DNA from: Akkermansia muciniphila
Lineage (GTDB): Bacteria > Verrucomicrobiota > Verrucomicrobiia > Limisphaerales > BJHT01
DNA: 64,000 bases
Reading direction: 5' to 3'
NCBI GenBank assembly: GCA_945861535.1
Contig: CAMAUZ010000009.1
Location: 61,610 to 125,609 of the forward strand
Translations under genes and position numbers: made by a program
Part shown: positions 47,228-51,697 of the stretch, piece by piece
Layout: every line of letters starts with the position of its first letter
Position numbering within the stretch: the first letter of the stretch is position 1
Notes under the pieces: model-generated
Told to the model about the DNA's origin: nothing
Database searches by the model: none
The model's input: the letters and a program-made list of their open reading frames with translations, nothing else

Positions 47228-47545
47228 TGGTCGGATGACATTTAACCCATGTGAGCACCAGCAACACATACAACCTGAAAGGCCCAGCCCAGTGACGAGC
47301 AGTTTTAAGACATCTACATGATGTCGGTCGCGCCAGAACAGTTTAGCCGGAAGAGAGCCATCGCGCTCCGCCGGTGCGGTGTGTTCATCCATAGTCAAGA
47401 TGGCCGCCCGCGAGACTATGATACGCTTTTACATTCTAAAGGCTTCCTAGAAGGTGTGCCTCCAAACACCGAAAGATCCGCCGTGAACCCGCGGGTTGGC
47501 ATCGTAAGATGACCAAGAGGTGTTTGTTCTTTGTTAGTATGGCAC

Positions 47546-47573
47546 GGGCCGGGGGCGCGAACGCTCCCGGCCC
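47546..47573 (+). other. GC-rich hairpin just upstream of the first tRNA
   Basis: GGGCCGGGGGCG-CGAA-CGCTCCCGGCCC folds into a 12-bp stem with a CGAA loop, followed by TCTTACTTTT. It may be a second terminator or a processing signal, 11 bases before the first tRNA. The stretch 47228-47545 contains smaller hairpins (CAAACACC...GGTGTTTG) but no tRNA I can fold. Confidence 0.65.
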
Positions 47574-47584
47574 TCTTACTTTTC

Positions 47585-47658
47585 GCGGTTGTGATTTAAC
47601 AGCAGAATGGCTCCCCGCCACGGAGTAAGTCCGGGTGCAACTCCCGGCAACCGCACCA
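47585..47658 (+). tRNA. tRNA-Gly (GCC), non-canonical elbow
   Basis: Acceptor GCGGTTG/CAACCGC with A73 and CCA encoded. Anticodon arm GCTCC-CCGCCAC-GGAGT gives anticodon GCC with C33 instead of U33. D loop AACAGC lacks GG. T arm CCGGG-TGCAACT-CCCGG has G55. The D and T loops recall the staphylococcal glycine tRNAs used for cell-wall synthesis. Confidence 0.85.
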
Positions 47659-47666
47659 ATCCCCTT

Positions 47667-47690
47667 GCGACTCCGAGTTGGGAGTCGCCA
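47667..47690 (+). other. CCA-ended microhelix in tRNA spacer
   Basis: A perfect 8-bp hairpin GCGACTCC-GAGTTG-GGAGTCGC whose 3' end reads CGCCA. It resembles a bare acceptor stem. It may instead be a processing or terminator-like hairpin. Confidence 0.5.
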
Positions 47691-47706
47691 CTAACCATCT
47701 TTCAAC

Positions 47707-47780
47707 AGGCCGCGCGCCAGCCTGCGCCACAGAGTCTCCAAAACTCAGTTGTCTTGGGGCAGCACCAAGGCGGCCTGCCA
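47707..47780 (+). tRNA. tRNA-Trp (CCA), non-canonical elbow
   Basis: Acceptor AGGCCGC/GCGGCCT, G73 (as expected for Trp), CCA encoded. Anticodon loop CTCCAAA gives CCA with U33; stem GAGT/ACTC. T arm CTTGG-GGCAGCA-CCAAG has G54 G55. D arm GCGC-CAGCCT-GCGC has no GG in the loop. Confidence 0.75.
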
Positions 47781-47835
47781 TTTTCCATTCTGAAATCTCA
47801 AATCTCCAGTGCCACTTGCAAAACCCGTGCTTGTT

Positions 47836-47924
47836 TATCTTTTACCCACCATCTTTTACCATCTGTATCCCGTCCCCTCGTCCAAGGCCCAGGCAGTTGG
47901 TAAAAGATGAGGGGTAAAAGATGG
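47836..47924. repeat. Inverted ATCTTTTACC repeats inside the tRNA array (family L)
   Basis: TATCTTTTACCCACCATCTT at 47836 is mirrored by GGTAAAAGATGAGGGGTAAA ending 47924. It fills the 200-base gap between tRNA-Trp and tRNA-Ala, where no tRNA is seen. Confidence 0.8.
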
Positions 47925-47984
47925 AACGCCGGAACTGTGAAGCCGAGCTTTTACAAGCGCCTCTCCAATTTGCGATACTCTCCC

Positions 47985-48059
47985 GGGGTCGTGGCAGACA
48001 AGCAATGCACTTGCCCTGCAAGCAAGCCGATGTGGGAGCATTACCCACCGACTCCACCA
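47985..48059 (+). tRNA. tRNA-Ala (TGC), non-canonical elbow
   Basis: Acceptor GGGGTCG/CGACTCC includes the G3-U70 pair that defines alanine tRNAs; A73, CCA encoded. Anticodon arm CTTGC-CCTGCAA-GCAAG gives TGC with C33. D loop GACAAGCAA lacks GG. T arm GTGGG-AGCATTA-CCCAC has A54 G55 C56 and T58, reversing the usual 54-58 pair. Confidence 0.88.
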
Positions 48060-48066
48060 CTTTCAC

Positions 48067-48144
48067 TGCGGGAAACTCGACCAATGCACAGAGAGAAGCC
48101 TCATAAACTTCTACAGGTGGGTGTGACTCCCACTCCCGCTACCA
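48067..48144 (+). tRNA. tRNA-Met (CAT), non-canonical elbow
   Basis: Acceptor TGCGGGA/TCCCGCT leaves a T1-T72 mismatch, as initiator tRNAs have an unpaired 1-72; A73, CCA encoded. Anticodon loop CTCATAA is typical of Met. T arm GTGGG-TGTGACT-CCCAC has G55 but T56. It lacks the three G-C pairs of initiators in the anticodon stem, so initiator identity is uncertain. Confidence 0.78.
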
Positions 48145-48223
48145 CTTTACCGCGGGGCCGATTCCAGGGAATCCCTGCCCCGCGATTCCACCGCCCCGGT
48201 CTGAGCCAAAGACCGGGGCGCAA

Positions 48224-48299
48224 CAGCGCGTAGCGTAGCAGCCAACGCACCCGGCTTGGGACCGGGGGACCGCAGGTGCAACTCCTGCCGCGCTGACCA
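48224..48299 (+). tRNA. tRNA-Pro (TGG), non-canonical elbow
   Basis: Acceptor CAGCGCG/CGCGCTG, A73, CCA encoded. D arm GCGT-AGCAGCCA-ACGC has no GG. Anticodon arm CCCGG-CTTGGGA-CCGGG gives TGG with U33 and G37. T arm GCAGG-TGCAACT-CCTGC has G55. Confidence 0.9.
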
Positions 48300-48308
48300 A
48301 TTTCGTGT

Positions 48309-48384
48309 GCTGCCGTGGCCGAACACATCAGGCATCCACCTTCTAAGTGGACCGATGCGGGTGGAACTCCCGCCGGCAGCACCA
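48309..48384 (+). tRNA. tRNA-Arg (TCT), non-canonical elbow
   Basis: Acceptor GCTGCCG/CGGCAGC, A73, CCA encoded. D arm GCC-GAACACATCA-GGC. Anticodon arm TCCAC-CTTCTAA-GTGGA gives TCT. T arm GCGGG-TGGAACT-CCCGC has G55 G56. First of three arginine tRNAs in the array. Confidence 0.9.
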
Positions 48385-48385
48385 T

Positions 48386-48459
48386 TGCCAGATAGTGTCA
48401 AAGTAGCACGGCGGCCTGTTAAGCCGCTTGTCTTGGTGCGAGTCCAAGTCTGGCAGCCA
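48386..48459 (+). tRNA. tRNA-Asn (GTT), non-canonical elbow
   Basis: Starts two bases after the previous CCA. Acceptor TGCCAGA/TCTGGCA, G73 (expected for Asn), CCA encoded. D arm GTG-TCAAAGTAG-CAC. Anticodon arm GCGGC-CTGTTAA-GCCGC gives GTT. T arm CTTGG-TGCGAGT-CCAAG has G55. Confidence 0.9.
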
Positions 48460-48466
48460 TTTCTCC

Positions 48467-48555
48467 GGGTGCGGTGTCTGGAGCAGACTGTTTCTCTTGA
48501 TAACCCGAGAGTTTGCGGCCTGCAGCCCCGGCGCAGTCCCCTTCCACCCTCACCA
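48467..48555 (+). tRNA. Class II tRNA-like gene, identity unresolved
   Basis: 89 bases, exactly the length of the tRNA-Ser that follows. D arm GTCT-GGAGC-AGAC is clear, a CTCTT...GAGAG anticodon-like stem is present, and the unit ends ACCA. The acceptor (GGGTGCG against CACCCTC) pairs poorly and the T arm is not recognisable. The anticodon could be read as TAA, GAT or TGA depending on register. It may be a decayed or strongly deviant Leu or Ser tRNA. Confidence 0.4.
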
Positions 48556-48561
48556 TTTCAC

Positions 48562-48650
48562 GGAAGGCAGGCAGATATAAGCTGGCTGCACCTGTCCCGA
48601 AAACAGGATCGGCATCGCCGAGGTCGGAGCATTACCGACGCCTTCCGCCA
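48562..48650 (+). tRNA. tRNA-Ser (CGA), class II, non-canonical elbow
   Basis: Acceptor GGAAGGC/GCCTTCC, G73 (expected for Ser), CCA encoded. Anticodon arm CCTGT-CCCGAAA-ACAGG gives CGA with C33. The long variable arm TCGGC-ATC-GCCGA is intact. T arm GTCGG-AGCATTA-CCGAC has A54 G55. Confidence 0.9.
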
Positions 48651-48695
48651 TTTTGACCCCGATTTAACACGCAACCCTCAACCAAAGGCATTCCT

Positions 48696-48851
48696 ATGAA
48701 ACCACCCATCCGTTTCCAAAGTCAGTTGCCGGTGCGCCGCAGCTACAAACCGCGCCGCCCCCTCTGCATCCCGCGGGTGACCCGCGGCACCCTTGTGTTT
48801 CGCCCGGCCAATCGCTTCGGCGAGAAGCCACTGCTCACCATCGTCCCGTAG
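48696..48851 (+). CDS. Possible 51-residue basic protein between tRNAs
   Basis: ATG 48696, preceded by AAAGG at a suitable distance, opens a frame ending at TAG 48849-48851, inside the 5' acceptor region of the next tRNA. The product is basic and Pro/Arg-rich (VRRSYKPRRPLCIPRVTRG). No family recognised. It occupies the only other long spacer in this part of the array. It may be chance. Confidence 0.35.
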   Translation: MKPPIRFQSQLPVRRSYKPRRPLCIPRVTRGTLVFRPANRFGEKPLLTIVP

Positions 48852-48915
48852 CTTAATAGCAGAGCCCTCGCCCGATAAGCGAGAGACCGCGGAGCGTTAC
48901 CGCGCGGGACGACCA
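48842..48915 (+). tRNA. tRNA-Ile (GAT), non-canonical elbow
   Basis: Acceptor CGTCCCG/CGGGACG, A73, CCA encoded. D arm GCT-TAATAGCAG-AGC has no GG. Anticodon arm CTCGC-CCGATAA-GCGAG gives GAT with C33. T arm CGCGG-AGCGTTA-CCGCG has A54 G55 and T58. Confidence 0.9.
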
Positions 48916-48920
48916 TTTAC

Positions 48921-48956
48921 GGGGCGTCGGACTTCGGTCCGGCAGCCCCCTGACCA
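48921..48956 (+). other. UUCG-capped hairpin ending in ACCA
   Basis: GGGGC-gt-CGGAC-TTCG-GTCCG-gca-GCCCC followed by CTGACCA, lying exactly between tRNA-Ile and tRNA-Phe. A minihelix-like or processing element. Confidence 0.55.
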
Positions 48957-48957
48957 T

Positions 48958-49032
48958 CCCCGAGTAGCTGAGACAGATTAGCGCCTCCCTGAAGAGGAGG
49001 AGACGTGGGTGCGATACCTGCCTCGGGGACCA
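48958..49032 (+). tRNA. tRNA-Phe (GAA), non-canonical elbow
   Basis: Acceptor CCCCGAG/CTCGGGG, A73, CCA encoded. D arm GCT-GAGACAGATT-AGC. Anticodon arm CCTCC-CTGAAGA-GGAGG gives GAA with G37. T arm GTGGG-TGCGATA-CCTGC (two wobble pairs) has G55. Confidence 0.9.
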
Positions 49033-49038
49033 TTTCTC

Positions 49039-49116
49039 GTCCGTGAATGCAAAGCAGCTCGCGCAGCCTGCCCTTCAAGCAGGCCGTAGCCGGTGCAAGT
49101 CCGGCCACGGATACCA
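49039..49116 (+). tRNA. tRNA-Glu (TTC), non-canonical elbow
   Basis: Acceptor GTCCGTG/CACGGAT (G1-T72 wobble), A73, CCA encoded. Anticodon arm CCTGC-CCTTCAA-GCAGG gives TTC with C33. D stem TGC/GCA with a long loop lacking GG. T arm GCCGG-TGCAAGT-CCGGC has G55. Confidence 0.88.
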
Positions 49117-49118
49117 AC

Positions 49119-49198
49119 GCTCTCAAGGTGTAACGAGAACCCTGCACGCCGCCCTGCGAAGGCGGAGGTTCGTGGTGCAAATCCACGTGAGAGCACCA
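49119..49198 (+). tRNA. tRNA-Arg (GCG), non-canonical elbow
   Basis: Acceptor GCTCTCA/TGAGAGC, A73, CCA encoded. Anticodon arm CCGCC-CTGCGAA-GGCGG gives GCG; most bacteria read CGC/CGU with ACG modified to inosine, so GCG is unusual. Large D loop. T arm CGTGG-TGCAAAT-CCACG has G55. Confidence 0.88.
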
Positions 49199-49204
49199 AT
49201 TCCA

Positions 49205-49326
49205 ATGGCGAATGGAGAATGCCGAATGACGAATTGCCGGTGCGCTCGCCGACTCCTCGATTGGCGCGCCCCGTCATTCGCAATTCGTCATTCGTCATTC
49301 GTCATTCGTCATTCGTCATTCGTCAC
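49205..49326. repeat. CATTCGT tandem and inverted repeat inside the tRNA array (family J)
   Basis: GAATGACGAATTGCC-type arm near 49222 faces an array of six 7-base CATTCGT units at about 49274-49325. A related fragment is at 20535-20575. It abuts the 5' end of the tRNA-Thr-like gene and may have damaged it. Confidence 0.8.
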
Positions 49327-49330
49327 TCCT

Positions 49331-49403
49331 GTGCCTCAGCAGCTACAGGGCGGGTTTTGTAAACCCGAATTCGTCGGTGCGAGTCCCGGCTTCCTGCGCA
49401 CCA
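49331..49403 (+). tRNA. tRNA-Thr (TGT)-like gene, acceptor poorly paired
   Basis: The anticodon arm CGGGT-TTTGTAA-ACCCG is perfect and gives TGT. A T-arm-like GTCGG-TGCGAGT(C)-CCGGC with G55 follows, and the unit ends GCACCA. The acceptor pairs only in its first four positions (GTGC against GCGC) and the D arm is unclear. The 5' flank is the CATTCGT repeat, so the gene may be truncated or strongly deviant. Confidence 0.5.
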
Positions 49404-49513
49404 ACGAATAATGCGCCACCATGGCCTGTGCGTGCATGGCCCACGATCTAACGTCCCTAGGGAAATCGAACGCGGGCGGCAGCGACCGCATGCCGTCTGC
49501 GCTTTCACTTTCT

Positions 49514-49588
49514 GTCCCGTTGGCCGAGCAGCTCAGGCAATGGTCTGCAAAACCATGCAGGCGGGTGCAACTCCCGCACGGGACTCCA
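49514..49588 (+). tRNA. tRNA-Cys (GCA), non-canonical elbow
   Basis: Acceptor GTCCCGT/ACGGGAC, T73 (the cysteine identity base), CCA encoded. D arm GCC-GAGCAGCTCA-GGC. Anticodon arm ATGGT-CTGCAAA-ACCAT gives GCA. T arm GCGGG-TGCAACT-CCCGC has G55. Confidence 0.92.
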
Positions 49589-49682
49589 CTTTTTCCAAGT
49601 GAATCCGGTCCTCCGGCAGAGACCACGCACGGTCGAACAAAGGGCGGGGCACCGGACTCAGTGCGCTTGGGAGACTGTTTGC

Positions 49683-49758
49683 GCATCCGTGGTGAAATTA
49701 CATTCATACTCCGCTTCGAACGGAGAGTTTGCAGGTGAGAGTCCTGCCGGATGCACCA
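49683..49758 (+). tRNA. tRNA-Arg (TCG), non-canonical elbow
   Basis: Acceptor GCATCCG/CGGATGC, A73, CCA encoded. D arm TGAA-ATTACA-TTCA. Anticodon arm CTCCG-CTTCGAA-CGGAG gives TCG. T arm GCAGG-TGAGAGT-CCTGC has G55 A56. With the GCG tRNA it covers the CGN box. Confidence 0.9.
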
Positions 49759-49827
49759 ATTTGATCGGTTGAGAGTCTCTGGGATGACCAACTAAGTTTT
49801 CTCACCTTCGACTTTCAATCCTTTTCC

Positions 49828-49911
49828 GGGCGTGTGGTTAAACCCGAACAGCAGAGGGTCCAGACTCAGAATCTGGCAGCCTTGGGGGTGCAATTCCCTC
49901 CATGCCCACCA
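49828..49911 (+). tRNA. tRNA-Leu (CAG), non-canonical elbow
   Basis: Acceptor GGGCGTG/CATGCCC (one G-T), A73, CCA encoded. Anticodon arm CCAGA-CTCAGAA-TCTGG gives CAG. D stem ACCC/GGGT lies seven bases after the acceptor rather than two. The variable region is only about 8 bases, short for Leu. T arm GGGGG-TGCAATT-CCCTC has G55. Confidence 0.85.
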
Positions 49912-49915
49912 CTTT

Positions 49916-49972
49916 GCGGCGACTGACTTAAGCGGGTGGATAAATCATCAGTCGAAGGAAGTTGCCGCGCCA
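49916..49972 (+). other. 57-nt CCA-ended tRNA-like minihelix
   Basis: GCGGCGA at the 5' end pairs with TTGCCGC followed by G-CCA, exactly as an acceptor stem with G73. The 39 bases between are too short for a cloverleaf; alternatively CGACTGA pairs with TCAGTCG. It sits between tRNA-Leu and tRNA-Ser. Confidence 0.45.
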
Positions 49973-49980
49973 GCCTATTT

Positions 49981-50068
49981 GGAATGTCAACCGGACGAGC
50001 GAGCCGGGCCTCGGTGCTAACGAGCGCGTGCCTGCGGGCAAGTGGTGCAAGTCCACGACATTCCGCCA
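49981..50068 (+). tRNA. tRNA-Ser (GCT), class II, non-canonical elbow
   Basis: Acceptor GGAATGT/ACATTCC, G73, CCA encoded. D arm CCGG-ACGAGCGAG-CCGG. Anticodon loop GTGCTAA on a CTCG/CGAG stem gives GCT. Variable arm TGCC-TGCG-GGCA. T arm AGTGG-TGCAAGT-CCACG has G55. Confidence 0.88.
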
Positions 50069-50101
50069 CCTTTTGCCCAGGATGCTCTCGTCCTCGTCTG
50101 G

Positions 50102-50761
50102 TTAACAAGACTGCGCTCCCGCCACCTGTTTCAGCGCCCGGAGGAGAAACTCCCGGCGCTGACTCGAGAGTTGCGAGCCGAAGCGCAGGGACTTGGTTCC
50201 GAGTTCGATCTCGATCAGCGGCACATTCCGCTTGTTCTGCTGCCACTTGGTCAGCGAGCGGCGCACCGCTTTGACTTCGCTCCAGCGGAAACGCCGGGTC
50301 CAACCTATCGGCCCGATCCCGGTGAAGACTTCGCCGCGATCCCCTTCCCGTCGCACAGCGATCTTGCCGCAGACAGACATCAATGCGAACGGAATGAGAA
50401 ACAGGCTTCCGATTAGAAACGGCAAACCGAACAGGCATAGCTTCCAATCCCATGCTCCCTTGACAATTTGTGTTCCGTAGATTCCACCCAGTGAGCCACC
50501 TGACCACAACAGCACAAACGGAACCATGAAGAACGCGAGCGCTGAACGTGTTGTGGCACCCACCTCGAAGCCTCCGCCCATCTGCCGCAGCCACGTCCCG
50601 CCCGGTGGACGCGACATATCCATCGGCGGCTCCGCCTGCTCCTGCGAGAGTTCGGCGAAACTGAAGGTCTGCGAACACGACCGGCACAATGCCACGTCGG
50701 TCGCCACATTCACATCTTCCAGCGGAATACCGCGCCGGCACTTCGGACAGGAGATATTCAT
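50102..50761 (-). CDS. Zinc-ribbon membrane protein embedded in the tRNA array
   Basis: A 219-residue protein running against the array. The N-terminus is a zinc-ribbon (MNISCPKCRRGIP ... ALCRSCSQTF, two CxxC). Two hydrophobic helices follow (AFFMVPFVLLWSGGSLGGIY and LCLFGLPFLIGSLFLIPFAL), then a C-terminal domain of mixed strands (RFRWSEVKAVRRSLTKW). ATG 50761 starts at the zinc ribbon. No named family. Its 3' end is 33 bases from the tRNA-Ser CCA end, so it splits the last two tRNAs from the rest. Confidence 0.75.
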   Translation of the reverse strand: MNISCPKCRRGIPLEDVNVATDVALCRSCSQTFSFAELSQEQAEPPMDMSRPPGGTWLRQMGGGFEVGATTRSALAFFMVPFVLLWSGGSLGGIYGTQIVKGAWDWKLCLFGLPFLIGSLFLIPFALMSVCGKIAVRREGDRGEVFTGIGPIGWTRRFRWSEVKAVRRSLTKWQQNKRNVPLIEIELGTKSLRFGSQLSSQRREFLLRALKQVAGAQSC

Positions 50762-50842
50762 AGGTTCATCCTTATCCGCCAGCGAAACCAAGGCGAGCAA
50801 TTCCTCACCGCAAACAGACCACTACGCCGCCACTCATTTTCC

Positions 50843-50916
50843 GGCCTGCAAGCATTAAAGTGATGCATCGGACTTTTAATCCGAGGAACAGGGAGCGTTA
50901 CCCTGGCGGGCCACCA
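50843..50916 (+). tRNA. tRNA-Lys (TTT), non-canonical elbow
   Basis: Acceptor GGCCTGC/GCGGGCC (one T-G), A73, CCA encoded. D arm GCAT-TAAAGTG-ATGC. Anticodon arm TCGGA-CTTTTAA-TCCGA gives TTT. T arm CAGGG-AGCGTTA-CCCTG has A54 G55 and T58. Confidence 0.92.
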
Positions 50917-50921
50917 ACTTC

Positions 50922-50995
50922 AGCCTCGTGGTGTAACAGGAGCATACCGGGCTTTGACCCCGACGGACCCGGTGCGAATCCGGGCGAGGCAGCCA
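50922..50995 (+). tRNA. tRNA-Gln (TTG), non-canonical elbow
   Basis: Acceptor AGCCTCG/CGAGGCA leaves A1-A72 unpaired, which fits the weak 1-72 pair required by GlnRS; G73, CCA encoded. Anticodon arm CGGG-CTTTGAC-CCCG gives TTG. T arm CCCGG-TGCGAAT-CCGGG has G55. Last tRNA of the array. Confidence 0.88.
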
Positions 50996-51045
50996 CTCAC
51001 CGCCATAACCAACAGGAACAAACACCAACCCCGGGAGCCGTGTGC

Positions 51046-51088
51046 TGGTGCGACAGAGTCTTGCCCAAGGTCGCAGACTATCGCACCA
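51046..51088 (+). other. CCA-ended hairpin before the HNH gene
   Basis: TGGTGCGA...TCGCACCA forms an 8-bp stem continued by AGTCT/AGACT, ending CACCA, 25 bases before the HNH gene. It is the fourth such hairpin in the array region. Confidence 0.5.
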
Positions 51089-51112
51089 TCCCTTCGGTCA
51101 CCCTGTTGTTTT

Positions 51113-51697
51113 ATGTCCGACATCCTGAACAAAAACATCGTGCTCGTGCTCAACCGCAACTGGCAGGCGATCAACATCCGCACGCCGGCCGACGCGTTCT
51201 GCCAGATGGCCACGCAGGTCGCCACCGCGTTGGACATCATGGGCGAAGAACAAATCCGCCCGGTCTCCTGGGCCGAGTGGATCACCCTGCCCATCCGCGA
51301 CGGGGACCACGCTGTCCGCACGGTGCGCGGGGAAATACGCGTGCCTGCTGTGATCATCGCGGTGAACTACGCCAAGGTGCCGCAGCAGCGCCCGCGTCTC
51401 TGCGCGCGCTCGATCCGTGAGCGCGATGGCAACCGCTGCCAATACACCGGCCGCGTGCTCCATCCCGACGAGGGCAGCCTCGACCACGTCGTCCCCCGCT
51501 CGCGTGGCGGTGCGGACTCGTGGGAAAACCTCGTCTGGTCCGCCAAGGACGTGAACCAGCGCAAGGCCGACCGTCTCCCGCACGAAGCCGGTCTCCGGCT
51601 GCTCACCATTCCGCGCGCGCCAAAGGAACTGCCGGCCACGGCCTTCATTCGTAACTCGCATGGTATTGCGGCGTGGAAGCTGTTTCTGAAAAGCTGA
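51113..51697 (+). CDS. HNH endonuclease
   Basis: A 194-residue protein. An N-terminal ~95-residue domain (VLVLNRNWQAINIRTPADAF) typical of a bacterial HNH family leads to the nuclease core: RDGNRCQYTG, LDHVVPRSRGG, WENLVWSAKDVNQRKADR, which supply the H-N-H residues. Only one of the usual CxxC cysteines (CQYTG) is present. ATG 51113 follows directly after the array. Similar HNH genes accompany mobile DNA and phage tRNA clusters; here the link to the array is positional. Confidence 0.88.
   Translation: MSDILNKNIVLVLNRNWQAINIRTPADAFCQMATQVATALDIMGEEQIRPVSWAEWITLPIRDGDHAVRTVRGEIRVPAVIIAVNYAKVPQQRPRLCARSIRERDGNRCQYTGRVLHPDEGSLDHVVPRSRGGADSWENLVWSAKDVNQRKADRLPHEAGLRLLTIPRAPKELPATAFIRNSHGIAAWKLFLKS

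Follow-up and report, generated by a model that had tools for sequence, protein, structure and literature searches.

Known tRNA arrays and the verrucomicrobial locus

Mycobacterial plasmids and phages contain so-called tRNA array units, dense clusters of transfer RNA (tRNA) genes that are redundant with the chromosome and often accompanied by an HNH endonuclease, which are regarded as a putative antidefence system (PMC5966550, PMC12803027). The array of Anabaena is a silent second set, which is induced by translation inhibitors and aids survival under them, and loss of the TrcR repressor raises the tRNA array, rtcB and an HNH gene (PMC10272220). Here, we analyzed a 3.4-kb array of tRNA genes at positions 47585-50995 (forward strand) of a 64,000-nt stretch of contig CAMAUZ010000009.1 (assembly GCA_945861535.1, Verrucomicrobiota), which is referred to as the window and from whose first letter all coordinates are counted.

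This locus belongs to a known kind, the HNH-linked tRNA arrays. Like the mycobacterial units, it combines dense, redundant tRNA genes with an HNH endonuclease, and beside the array unit criterion of at least 20 genes it has 19 intact genes and one degenerate gene. We know of no array unit definition demanding a canonical tRNA elbow, and regard the array as a variant of this group rather than an outsider. What is new is an elbow with A at position 18 and G at position 55 (A18/G55), the recurrence of such arrays in Verrucomicrobiota and viral contigs with a division of anticodons in mixed arrays, the linkage of relatives' arrays to Ro60, Y RNA and RtcB, and a covarying leader RNA with a terminator-like hairpin and no Rfam match. 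In the open-licence literature we found no paper on A18/G55 elbow arrays or on the leader RNA and, among the matches listed (titles and abstract starts), none on the linkage of tRNA arrays with Ro60, Y RNA and RtcB. A preliminary description held that this could be a previously undescribed system, which is appropriate for these features and not for the HNH-linked array itself. We see about an even chance that the array is a reserve tRNA set, mostly of the A18/G55 type, which would be charged and would serve ribosomes whenever damage or shortage affects the ordinary tRNAs.

Gene content of the array

A fold scan combined with reading of the letters revealed 19 intact tRNA genes and one degenerate Pro(CGG) gene (48464-48555), where 20 tRNA or tRNA-like genes had been counted previously. 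Standard tools recovered part of this set: ARAGORN reported seven tRNAs in the window, and the Rfam tRNA model gave ten matches at the gathering score over the whole window and 14 at E ≤ 5 in 47400-51200, with a partial match for Thr. The genes of the array are as follows.

47585-47658 (+) tRNA-Gly(GCC), G55, A18; ARAGORN, Rfam tRNA model
47707-47780 (+) tRNA-Trp(CCA), T loop GGCAGCA, G73; letters, fold
47985-48059 (+) tRNA-Ala(TGC), G3:U70, T loop AGCATTA; Rfam tRNA model, fold scan
48067-48144 (+) tRNA with anticodon CAT (Met, or Ile2 after modification), T loop TGTGACT; fold scan, identical in congener
48224-48299 (+) tRNA-Pro(TGG), C1:G72; ARAGORN, Rfam tRNA model
48309-48384 (+) tRNA-Arg(TCT), T loop TGGAACT; ARAGORN, Rfam tRNA model
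48386-48459 (+) tRNA-Asn(GTT), G73; ARAGORN, Rfam tRNA model
48464-48555 (+) degenerate tRNA-Pro(CGG) remnant; intact homologues in other arrays, 60% identity to congener
48562-48650 (+) tRNA-Ser(CGA), long variable arm, G73; fold scan, identical in congener
48842-48915 (+) tRNA-Ile(GAT), T loop AGCGTTA; Rfam tRNA model
48958-49032 (+) tRNA-Phe(GAA); ARAGORN, Rfam tRNA model
49039-49116 (+) tRNA-Glu(TTC); fold scan
49119-49198 (+) tRNA-Arg(GCG), an unusual G34 Arg anticodon; Rfam tRNA model, fold scan
49332-49403 (+) tRNA-Thr(TGT), 8-nt T loop, weak acceptor pairing, start approximate; partial Rfam match 49332-49390, 93% identity to congener
49514-49588 (+) tRNA-Cys(GCA), U73; ARAGORN, Rfam tRNA model
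49683-49758 (+) tRNA-Arg(TCG), T loop TGAGAGT; ARAGORN, Rfam tRNA model
49828-49911 (+) tRNA-Leu(CAG); Rfam tRNA model
49981-50068 (+) tRNA-Ser(GCT), long variable arm, G73; fold scan
50843-50916 (+) tRNA-Lys(TTT), T loop AGCGTTA; Rfam tRNA model
50922-50995 (+) tRNA-Gln(TTG), G73, unpaired 1-72; Rfam tRNA model

These genes cover 16 amino acids when the CAT tRNA is taken as Met. All 19 intact tRNAs have G55 and an encoded CCA. Their T loops start with TGC in 11 tRNAs (including the 8-nt loop of Thr), with AGC in Ala, Ser(CGA), Ile and Lys, and with GGC in Trp, TGT in the CAT tRNA, TGG in Arg(TCT) and TGA in Arg(TCG); in the last three, base 56 is T, G and A, respectively. The GG dinucleotide is absent from 16 of the 18 D loops that can be delimited (Thr left out), the exceptions being Gln and Ser(CGA). 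Since most D loops of the array have A18-G19, the G19-C56 pair is retained and G18-U55 alone is replaced. The earlier claims on G55, missing GG, encoded CCA and charging identity elements (Ala G3:U70, Cys U73, G73 in Ser, Gln, Trp and Asn, the unpaired 1-72 of Gln and the long arms of Ser) were all borne out.

Two further features were noted within the array. An open reading frame (ORF) of 232 aa at 50102-50800 on the reverse strand, without a Pfam match, splits it between Ser(GCT) and Lys, and its DNA is 84% identical in the congener. A short tandem repeat of ATTCGTC occupies 49283-49325 in a spacer.

A recoded elbow

Few features of tRNA are as conserved as the contact between G18 and pseudouridine 55 (Psi55). 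According to PMC4810234, 18-Psi55 is the inner contact of the elbow, made by a single hydrogen bond, and 19-56 forms a flat outer face to which the L1 stalk, RNase P and T-boxes bind.

We tabulated both positions over unique tRNA-like folds with an encoded CCA from the window and 280 fetched loci (L041-L320). Because most loci were fetched for the G55 pattern, the numbers of G55 and U55 folds do not reflect how prevalent the two classes are; the state of the D loop lies outside that pattern. Stem pairing in these matches is not independent evidence, because the scan demands paired stems. At a score of 18.5 or more, the set comprised 1989 G55 and 719 U55 folds, with a scan noise of 10 folds with A55 and 30 with C55. 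GG occurred in the D loop of 693 U55 folds and 235 G55 folds, and the commonest D loops were AACAGCA, AATAGCA and AACAGTA in G55 folds and AATGGTA and AGTGGTA in U55 folds. In D loops of 7 nt, where the numbering is least ambiguous, A18 was present in 533 of 597 G55 folds (G18 in 50, C in 11, T in 3), and G18 in 194 of 195 U55 folds (T in one). The 54-58 pair of the 1989 G55 folds was T-A in 1289, A-T in 257, G-G in 228 and C-A in 118.

The joint table of 18/55 and 19/56 was drawn from folds with T-A, A-T or G-G at 54-58, a score of at least 20 and D loops of 7-10 nt. It shows A18-G19 in place of G18-G19, and a simple loss of the D-loop GG was discarded as a description. The proposed coupling of positions 18 and 55 is supported by these counts, and its reading as a coupled loss is not. 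When base 56 was not C, base 19 (taken as the one following A18 in G55 folds and G18 in U55 folds) was complementary to it in 72 of 122 G55 folds (51.0 in 1000 shuffles, maximum 66) and in 42 of 47 U55 folds (21.7, maximum 30). The A18/G55 elbow is a swap, not a loss, and the 19-56 pair covaries in both classes. With 19-56 retained and 18/55 swapped, the elbow thus preserves its outer face and rebuilds its inner contact.

Comparison with described arrays and staphylococcal tRNA-Gly

The known arrays that we scanned have U55 nearly throughout, unlike the array in the window with its 19 of 19 G55 tRNAs. On plasmids, U55 was found in 17/18 tRNAs of Nostoc, 25/26 of mycobacteria, 21/24 of Variovorax and 18/18 of Pseudarthrobacter; in phages, in 16/17 tRNAs of Tunturi_5, 31/31 of Xanthomonas phage X1 (reached via a DNA match) and 24/24 of LinStu (reached via Ro60). 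Ten known-array regions were fetched, of which L324, L325 and L330 gave no tRNA in the scan and L327 only three. The single exception on the M. avium plasmid pS2b is no clear tRNA, and neither pS2b nor LinStu has an A18/G55 class. The exception on the plasmid of Nostoc PCC 7524, whose array was read in place of that of Anabaena, is an A18/G55 tRNA-Ile (L321:9321; D loop AAAAGTG, T loop GGCAGTA, with G54 and G58).

G55 and a missing D-loop GG are also common to the array and staphylococcal tRNA-Gly, a comparison made in the preliminary description, which considered non-ribosomal aminoacyl transfer. As non-ribosomal donors, the tRNAs would supply transferases that build cell walls, lipids or peptides. 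The non-proteinogenic staphylococcal tRNA-Gly has CU or UU at positions 18-19 (PMC4052509), in contrast to AG in the array tRNAs. It serves Gly alone, lies outside any multi-isotype G55 array and has a T stem of the weak EF-Tu type: A49-U65, U50-A64 and A51-U63 were present in 13 of 13 unique staphylococcal G55 tRNA-Gly folds (six loci, four of them named and two, L298 and L299, assigned by tRNA content). The array G55 T stems differ from these, and at 49-65, 50-64 and 51-63 G55 tRNAs resemble U55 tRNAs, with the largest gap at 51-63 (CG 0.27 versus 0.10). Moreover, G55 tRNAs span all 20 amino acids, their anticodons are kept and divided with those of U55 tRNAs, and the recurring gene clusters identified in 22 array genomes (HNH, RtcB, Ro60) include no transferase. 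Donors of the staphylococcal type were rejected as the leading idea on account of the T-stem and D-loop mismatch, and a role of this kind now seems hardly probable at all.

Probable charging and decoding

Bases known as identity elements were counted in 1919 unique G55 folds with a score of 19.5 or more. G3:U70 was present in 63/63 Ala tRNAs and C1:G72 in 92/98 Pro tRNAs. The discriminator base was conserved in Cys (U, 93/94), Asp (G, 77/78), Asn (G, 76/78), Ile (A, 120/120), Trp (G, 32/34) and Tyr (A, 34/34), and was less strictly conserved in Gln (G73, 98/122). Long variable arms were found in 62/64 Ser and 34/34 Tyr tRNAs; those of Leu were not reliably parsed. Stop anticodons occurred in four of the 1919 folds, and taken together the G55 tRNAs represent all 20 amino acids. 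From these elements, the G55 array tRNAs are likely to be chargeable.

In 45 mixed loci (40 of them viral, a few identical in tRNA content), each with at least four G55 and at least four U55 tRNAs, only 26 anticodons were common to both classes, compared to 97.2 ± 7.8 (minimum 72 in 2000 trials) when the U55 sets were swapped between loci. This division of anticodons points to translation. The altered elbow beside intact acceptor and anticodon arms, together with the linkage to RNA repair genes in relatives, would also suit decoys, i.e. chargeable look-alikes that take no part in translation and titrate effectors which cleave or bind tRNAs. However, decoys would need neither such strong synthetase elements across 20 amino acids nor anticodons divided with those of U55 tRNAs, which makes this explanation quite improbable.

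Translational use of the G55 tRNAs is likely on this sequence evidence. Several sites are consistent with a reduced need for modification. The ACG anticodon of Arg requires TadA, and the G55 tRNAs have 71 GCG and 9 ACG anticodons, compared to 3 and 11 in the U55 tRNAs (Fisher p = 6e-7). D loops without U account for 31.7% of G55 and 13.3% of U55 tRNAs. The preference for GCG over ACG and the U-poorer D loops fit tRNAs that depend less on modification enzymes. T54 is found in 65% of G55 and 93% of U55 tRNAs. The Ile anticodon TAT does not separate the classes (23/118 G55 and 6/23 U55 of the TAT plus GAT total).

In keeping with translational use, the same elbow occurs outside arrays in a tRNA-Glu(CTC), which has A18/G55 in eight loci of the order; since loci were picked by the G55 pattern, only A18 is informative in these cases. 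Such non-array genes were seen at L038 (own genome), L055, L059, L060, L064-L066, L069 and L070.

Ordinary tRNA genes of the genome and conservation of the array

The genome (7.9 Mb, 169 contigs) gave 54 tRNA matches, 11 of them in the array and 43 dispersed. By anticodon, the dispersed genes serve 19 amino acids, to which Ile would be added by an Ile2 among the three CAT genes. As read from the letters, 42 of the 43 have U55, and the remaining one is a Glu(CTC) gene with A18/G55 and the T loop TGCGATT (G000:C21:63262-63333). Canonical Ile(GAT) and Ala(TGC) genes were not found outside the array in the 169-contig assembly; they may sit in a ribosomal RNA operon that is absent from it.

The anticodons of the array are largely duplicated among the dispersed genes, as would be expected from a codon-bias supplement, in which the array adds decoding capacity for a resident element and the elbow is a functionless quirk of the lineage. 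Nonetheless, the swap is coupled, it is found in tRNAs of unlike sequence in G55 arrays of other families of the class, and it occurs singly in the Nostoc plasmid array, and for these reasons it is not the drift of one lineage. Such a supplement is thus very unlikely.

Between the window and the congener G037, the tRNA genes (Ala and Gln included) are identical at 1357 of 1448 aligned positions, the spacers at 845 of 1191 and the HNH gene at 538 of 585. The Ala and Gln tRNAs have no like counterpart at the same place in the congener (44% and 61%). With tRNAs far better conserved than spacers and with identity elements intact, plain decay into pseudogenes was ruled out, and judging from this conservation the array tRNA set is under selection. 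The proposal of a selected, chargeable parallel set is therefore upheld by the 43 dispersed tRNAs beside the array, the identity elements and the conservation pattern. A lack of canonical tRNAs elsewhere in the genome would have spoken against it, and they are present; acceptor pairing is likewise conserved in relatives.

Distribution in Verrucomicrobiota and viral contigs

A search for G55 arrays in other Verrucomicrobiota, suggested in the preliminary description, showed that they recur in about a quarter of the sampled genomes of the order, which, like the conservation between the congeners, speaks against a chance finding. A pattern of the G55 T arm plus CCA was counted per genome in 196 genomes of the order, of which 50 had at least three matches and 38 at least five. 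A reversed control pattern reached three per genome in 4 of the 196 genomes and never more, so the class with at least three matches is slightly impure. Isotype order and content are similar across many families. In a phylum-wide sample (288 genomes), at least five matches were found in the own genome, in 6 of 93 others of the class and in none of 194 genomes of other classes. The 25-base matches listed for these six genomes include no sequence that is identical to a match in the window. One further genome of the class (G410) had four matches and six control matches.

Tandem G55 tRNAs were found in 100 viral-contig stretches and in at least 114 species-genome stretches. Of 80 listed stretches of the latter kind, sorted by eye and including some from the same genome, 61 bear verrucomicrobial names, 4 Staphylococcus and 15 other names or none. 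Staphylococcus surfaced unprompted, which serves as a check of the pattern; single odd names may be binning errors, because most records are metagenome bins. Carriers not labelled as bins include Geminisphaera colitermitum TAV2, Opitutaceae bacterium EW11 and Verrucomicrobium sp. BvORR034 and BvORR106.

The viral contigs were taken as viral on the labelling of the collection. Six of ten proteins from them matched PHROGs (methyltransferases, an exonuclease, a helicase loader, an RNA-binding protein and an HNH endonuclease), with no structural protein among them. Two viral contigs with G55 tRNAs also have transfer-messenger RNA genes (L150:3523-3882, 116.3 bits; L109:7094-7530, 100.2 bits).

This distribution bears on whether the arrays are cargo of phages or other mobile elements, replacing cleaved host tRNAs during infection, with bacterial copies that are captured or decaying and have no regular cellular role. 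The 100 viral stretches, five viral loci with the leader RNA described below, the patchy presence (50 of 196 genomes at three or more matches), at least one genome with two arrays, the recurrence of the HNH family on plasmids and phages and the loss of genes from the window copy all agree with it. On the other hand, tRNA genes are far better conserved than spacers between the two congeners, array order and content are alike over many families, many carriers are bacterial genomes, including ones outside the metagenome bins such as G. colitermitum TAV2, and of 15 other window ORFs scanned against Pfam, seven matched and none to a phage or plasmid family. We consider an explanation by cargo alone unlikely.

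A conserved leader RNA upstream of the array

Two features precede the first tRNA gene of the array.

47449-47532 (+) conserved leader RNA, candidate attenuator; model R1, 83.3 bits, E 3.5e-22
47546-47573 (+) intrinsic terminator-like hairpin, 12 pairs and a T-rich tail, between the leader and tRNA-Gly, 11 nt before tRNA-Gly

Model R1 was trained on 30 sequences, including the copy of the congener and excluding that of the window. Over 30 diverse copies, all 360 cells of the three-helix structure were paired; doubly changed cells numbered 46, compared to 17.2 ± 2.7 in shuffles, for helices chosen on the same alignment as tested. Helix 1 (GGUGU:ACACC) is invariant and hence has no covariation support of its own. 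The leader had no Rfam match at E ≤ 5 in a scan of 47400-51200.

The core motif had 55 unique occurrences in the fetched loci, 126-2469 nt upstream of a G55 T arm. The leader was present in 55 of the 196 genomes of the order, i.e. in 42 of the 50 with at least three G55 matches and in 13 of the 146 others (p = 3e-23), an association that is partly by construction, because the model was trained on copies taken from arrays of this kind (of the 196 genomes, 13 are themselves listed as sources). Nine of the 288 phylum-sample genomes contained it, all of the own class and one with a weak match, as did 5 of 100 viral loci above 59 bits. It was not found in the known-array loci L321-L330, where LinStu gave one weak antisense match (18.7 bits). 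In extra loci fetched around leaders, some of which overlap, 25 of 28 downstream tRNA folds were G55. Leader copies without a downstream tRNA fold include L342, L343, L346 and L348, with a terminator-like hairpin, and L350-L352.

Among 12 arrays that start with this Gly tRNA (own included), a like hairpin lies 10-12 nt before the first tRNA in eight and 80 and 107 nt before it in two; in two none was found. Leader and hairpin suggest conditional expression. In the window copy, the minimum free energy fold pairs CAAACACC with GGUGUUUG; no simple antiterminator pairing with the hairpin stem was found, and a constrained refold left two states unseparated. The stretches AGGUGUG (47452-47458) and GAGGUG (47517-47522) of the leader resemble Shine-Dalgarno sequences, and as a speculation, ribosomes themselves might be sensed through them. 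Control in Anabaena differs in that a protein repressor acts on the trn operon, where this locus has a leader RNA with a terminator-like hairpin.

Neighboring genes

The 3' border of the array is formed by an endonuclease gene.

51113-51697 (+) HNH endonuclease, 194 aa; Pfam HNH_4 and HNH

Members of this HNH family adjoin the known arrays on Nostoc, mycobacterial, Variovorax and Pseudarthrobacter plasmids and phages. Neighbors were surveyed in 22 genomes of the order at 36 array loci, which had been selected by their G55 matches, with one member of each cluster tested against Pfam. The recurring clusters were HNH (19 genomes), RtcB (16) and Ro60 (13); a further cluster of ~122 aa in 14 genomes was taken as a spurious reading of tRNA genes. 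The window contains the HNH gene, with Ro60 and RtcB absent. In Anabaena, one repressor affects the array, rtcB and an HNH gene; here, HNH is adjacent and RtcB lies on another contig, being adjacent in relatives.

Ro60 matches at E < 1e-20 were found in 22 of the 196 genomes of the order; 20 of these belong to the 50 array genomes and two to the 146 others (Fisher p = 7e-12). This cut was chosen post hoc; at E ≤ 0.001 there were 30 of 196, and 4 of the 8 weaker ones had at least three G55 matches. The association was similar for the class with at least five matches (15/38 versus 7/158, p = 1e-7). In five of eight Ro60 loci scanned, the called Ro60 start is preceded by or coincides with a Y-RNA-like hairpin (RF01656), and hairpins of this family were seen in G55 arrays at L078:9240-9310, L083:9113-9183, L085:12943-13011, L087:14206-14275 and L095:11190-11269. 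A GOLLD RNA (203.7 bits) lies inside the G55 array of a relative (L103:7979-8417).

Thus, components of Ro60/Y RNA/RtcB repair, namely Ro60 with an adjacent Y RNA, and RtcB, are located in or beside relatives' arrays. RNA ligases and TROVE proteins are reported from jumbo phages (PMC7824862), and we found Ro60 homologues in 343 phage records. LinStu has Ro60 with a tRNA array, but its elbow is ordinary, unlike that of the G55 arrays.

Proposed role and meaning

If the array is a reserve set, the leader RNA and its hairpin would hold transcription off until a stress signal allows read-through. Ordinary synthetases would then charge the array tRNAs, which would enter ribosomes because the outward 19-56 pair, read by the L1 stalk and RNase P, is kept. 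With the hidden 18-55 contact remade as A18-G55, the elbow would need no Psi55 and would escape enzymes and nucleases that read T-Psi-C. In fuller copies, RtcB and Ro60/Y RNA would act on broken RNAs under the same stress, by repairing or binding them. Elbow-directed attack does exist, as a bacterial contact-inhibition nuclease cuts a tRNA T loop between T and Psi (PMC9086364). Escape from damage as the purpose of G55 tRNAs is put forward as a hypothesis.

Several observations weigh against this explanation. In the elbow itself, 235 of the 1989 G55 folds have GG in the D loop, and where base 56 is A, C19 is as frequent as U19 (22 and 21 of 47). The window copy has no His, Tyr, Val or Asp tRNA (Asp is present in the congener) and one degenerate gene. 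Discriminators are mixed in His (C73, 54/85), Phe (A73, 66/101) and Gly (U73, 50/133), and U33 is rarer in G55 (0.861) than in U55 tRNAs (0.935). The division of anticodons also fits viral arrays that simply avoid duplicates, and the preference for GCG is weaker in viral loci (GCG/ACG 9/7 in G55 and 3/10 in U55). Eight leader loci have no tRNA fold downstream, one of them with only 47 bases left; by their letters four have a terminator-like hairpin, and these loci may reflect array loss, another use of the leader also being possible. The own genome has no Ro60 (TROVE) match, and its only RtcB match is on another contig. Beyond the order, RtcB and Ro60 are found far less often than HNH: loci of other genomes (up to 8 kb) gave HNH 41, RtcB 19 and Ro60 10, and the 100 viral loci HNH 15, RtcB 2 and Ro60 2. 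Neither Y RNA nor GOLLD was among the matches listed (150 of 166 Rfam) for 13 viral loci or loci from outside the order. Finally, we know of no elbow-reading attacker of these bacteria.

Tentatively, the G55 arrays may represent a second, exchangeable tRNA architecture, in which 18-55 is recoded from G-Psi to A-G and 19-56 is kept. It would be largely independent of modification, have its own leader RNA family, be tied to Ro60/Y RNA and RtcB, and be traded between Verrucomicrobiota and viruses as a tool in an arms race against readers of the canonical elbow. About 2000 folds with the coupled swap, which retain the synthetase elements and the pair contacted by ribosome and RNase P, would separate the role of the elbow in translation from its role toward modification enzymes and other tRNA-binding factors. 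The leader is a candidate regulatory RNA of a new class, and its output is clear. Some carriers appear to be in culture, and the purpose of tRNA arrays would become testable as a reserve set that escapes elbow-reading attack.

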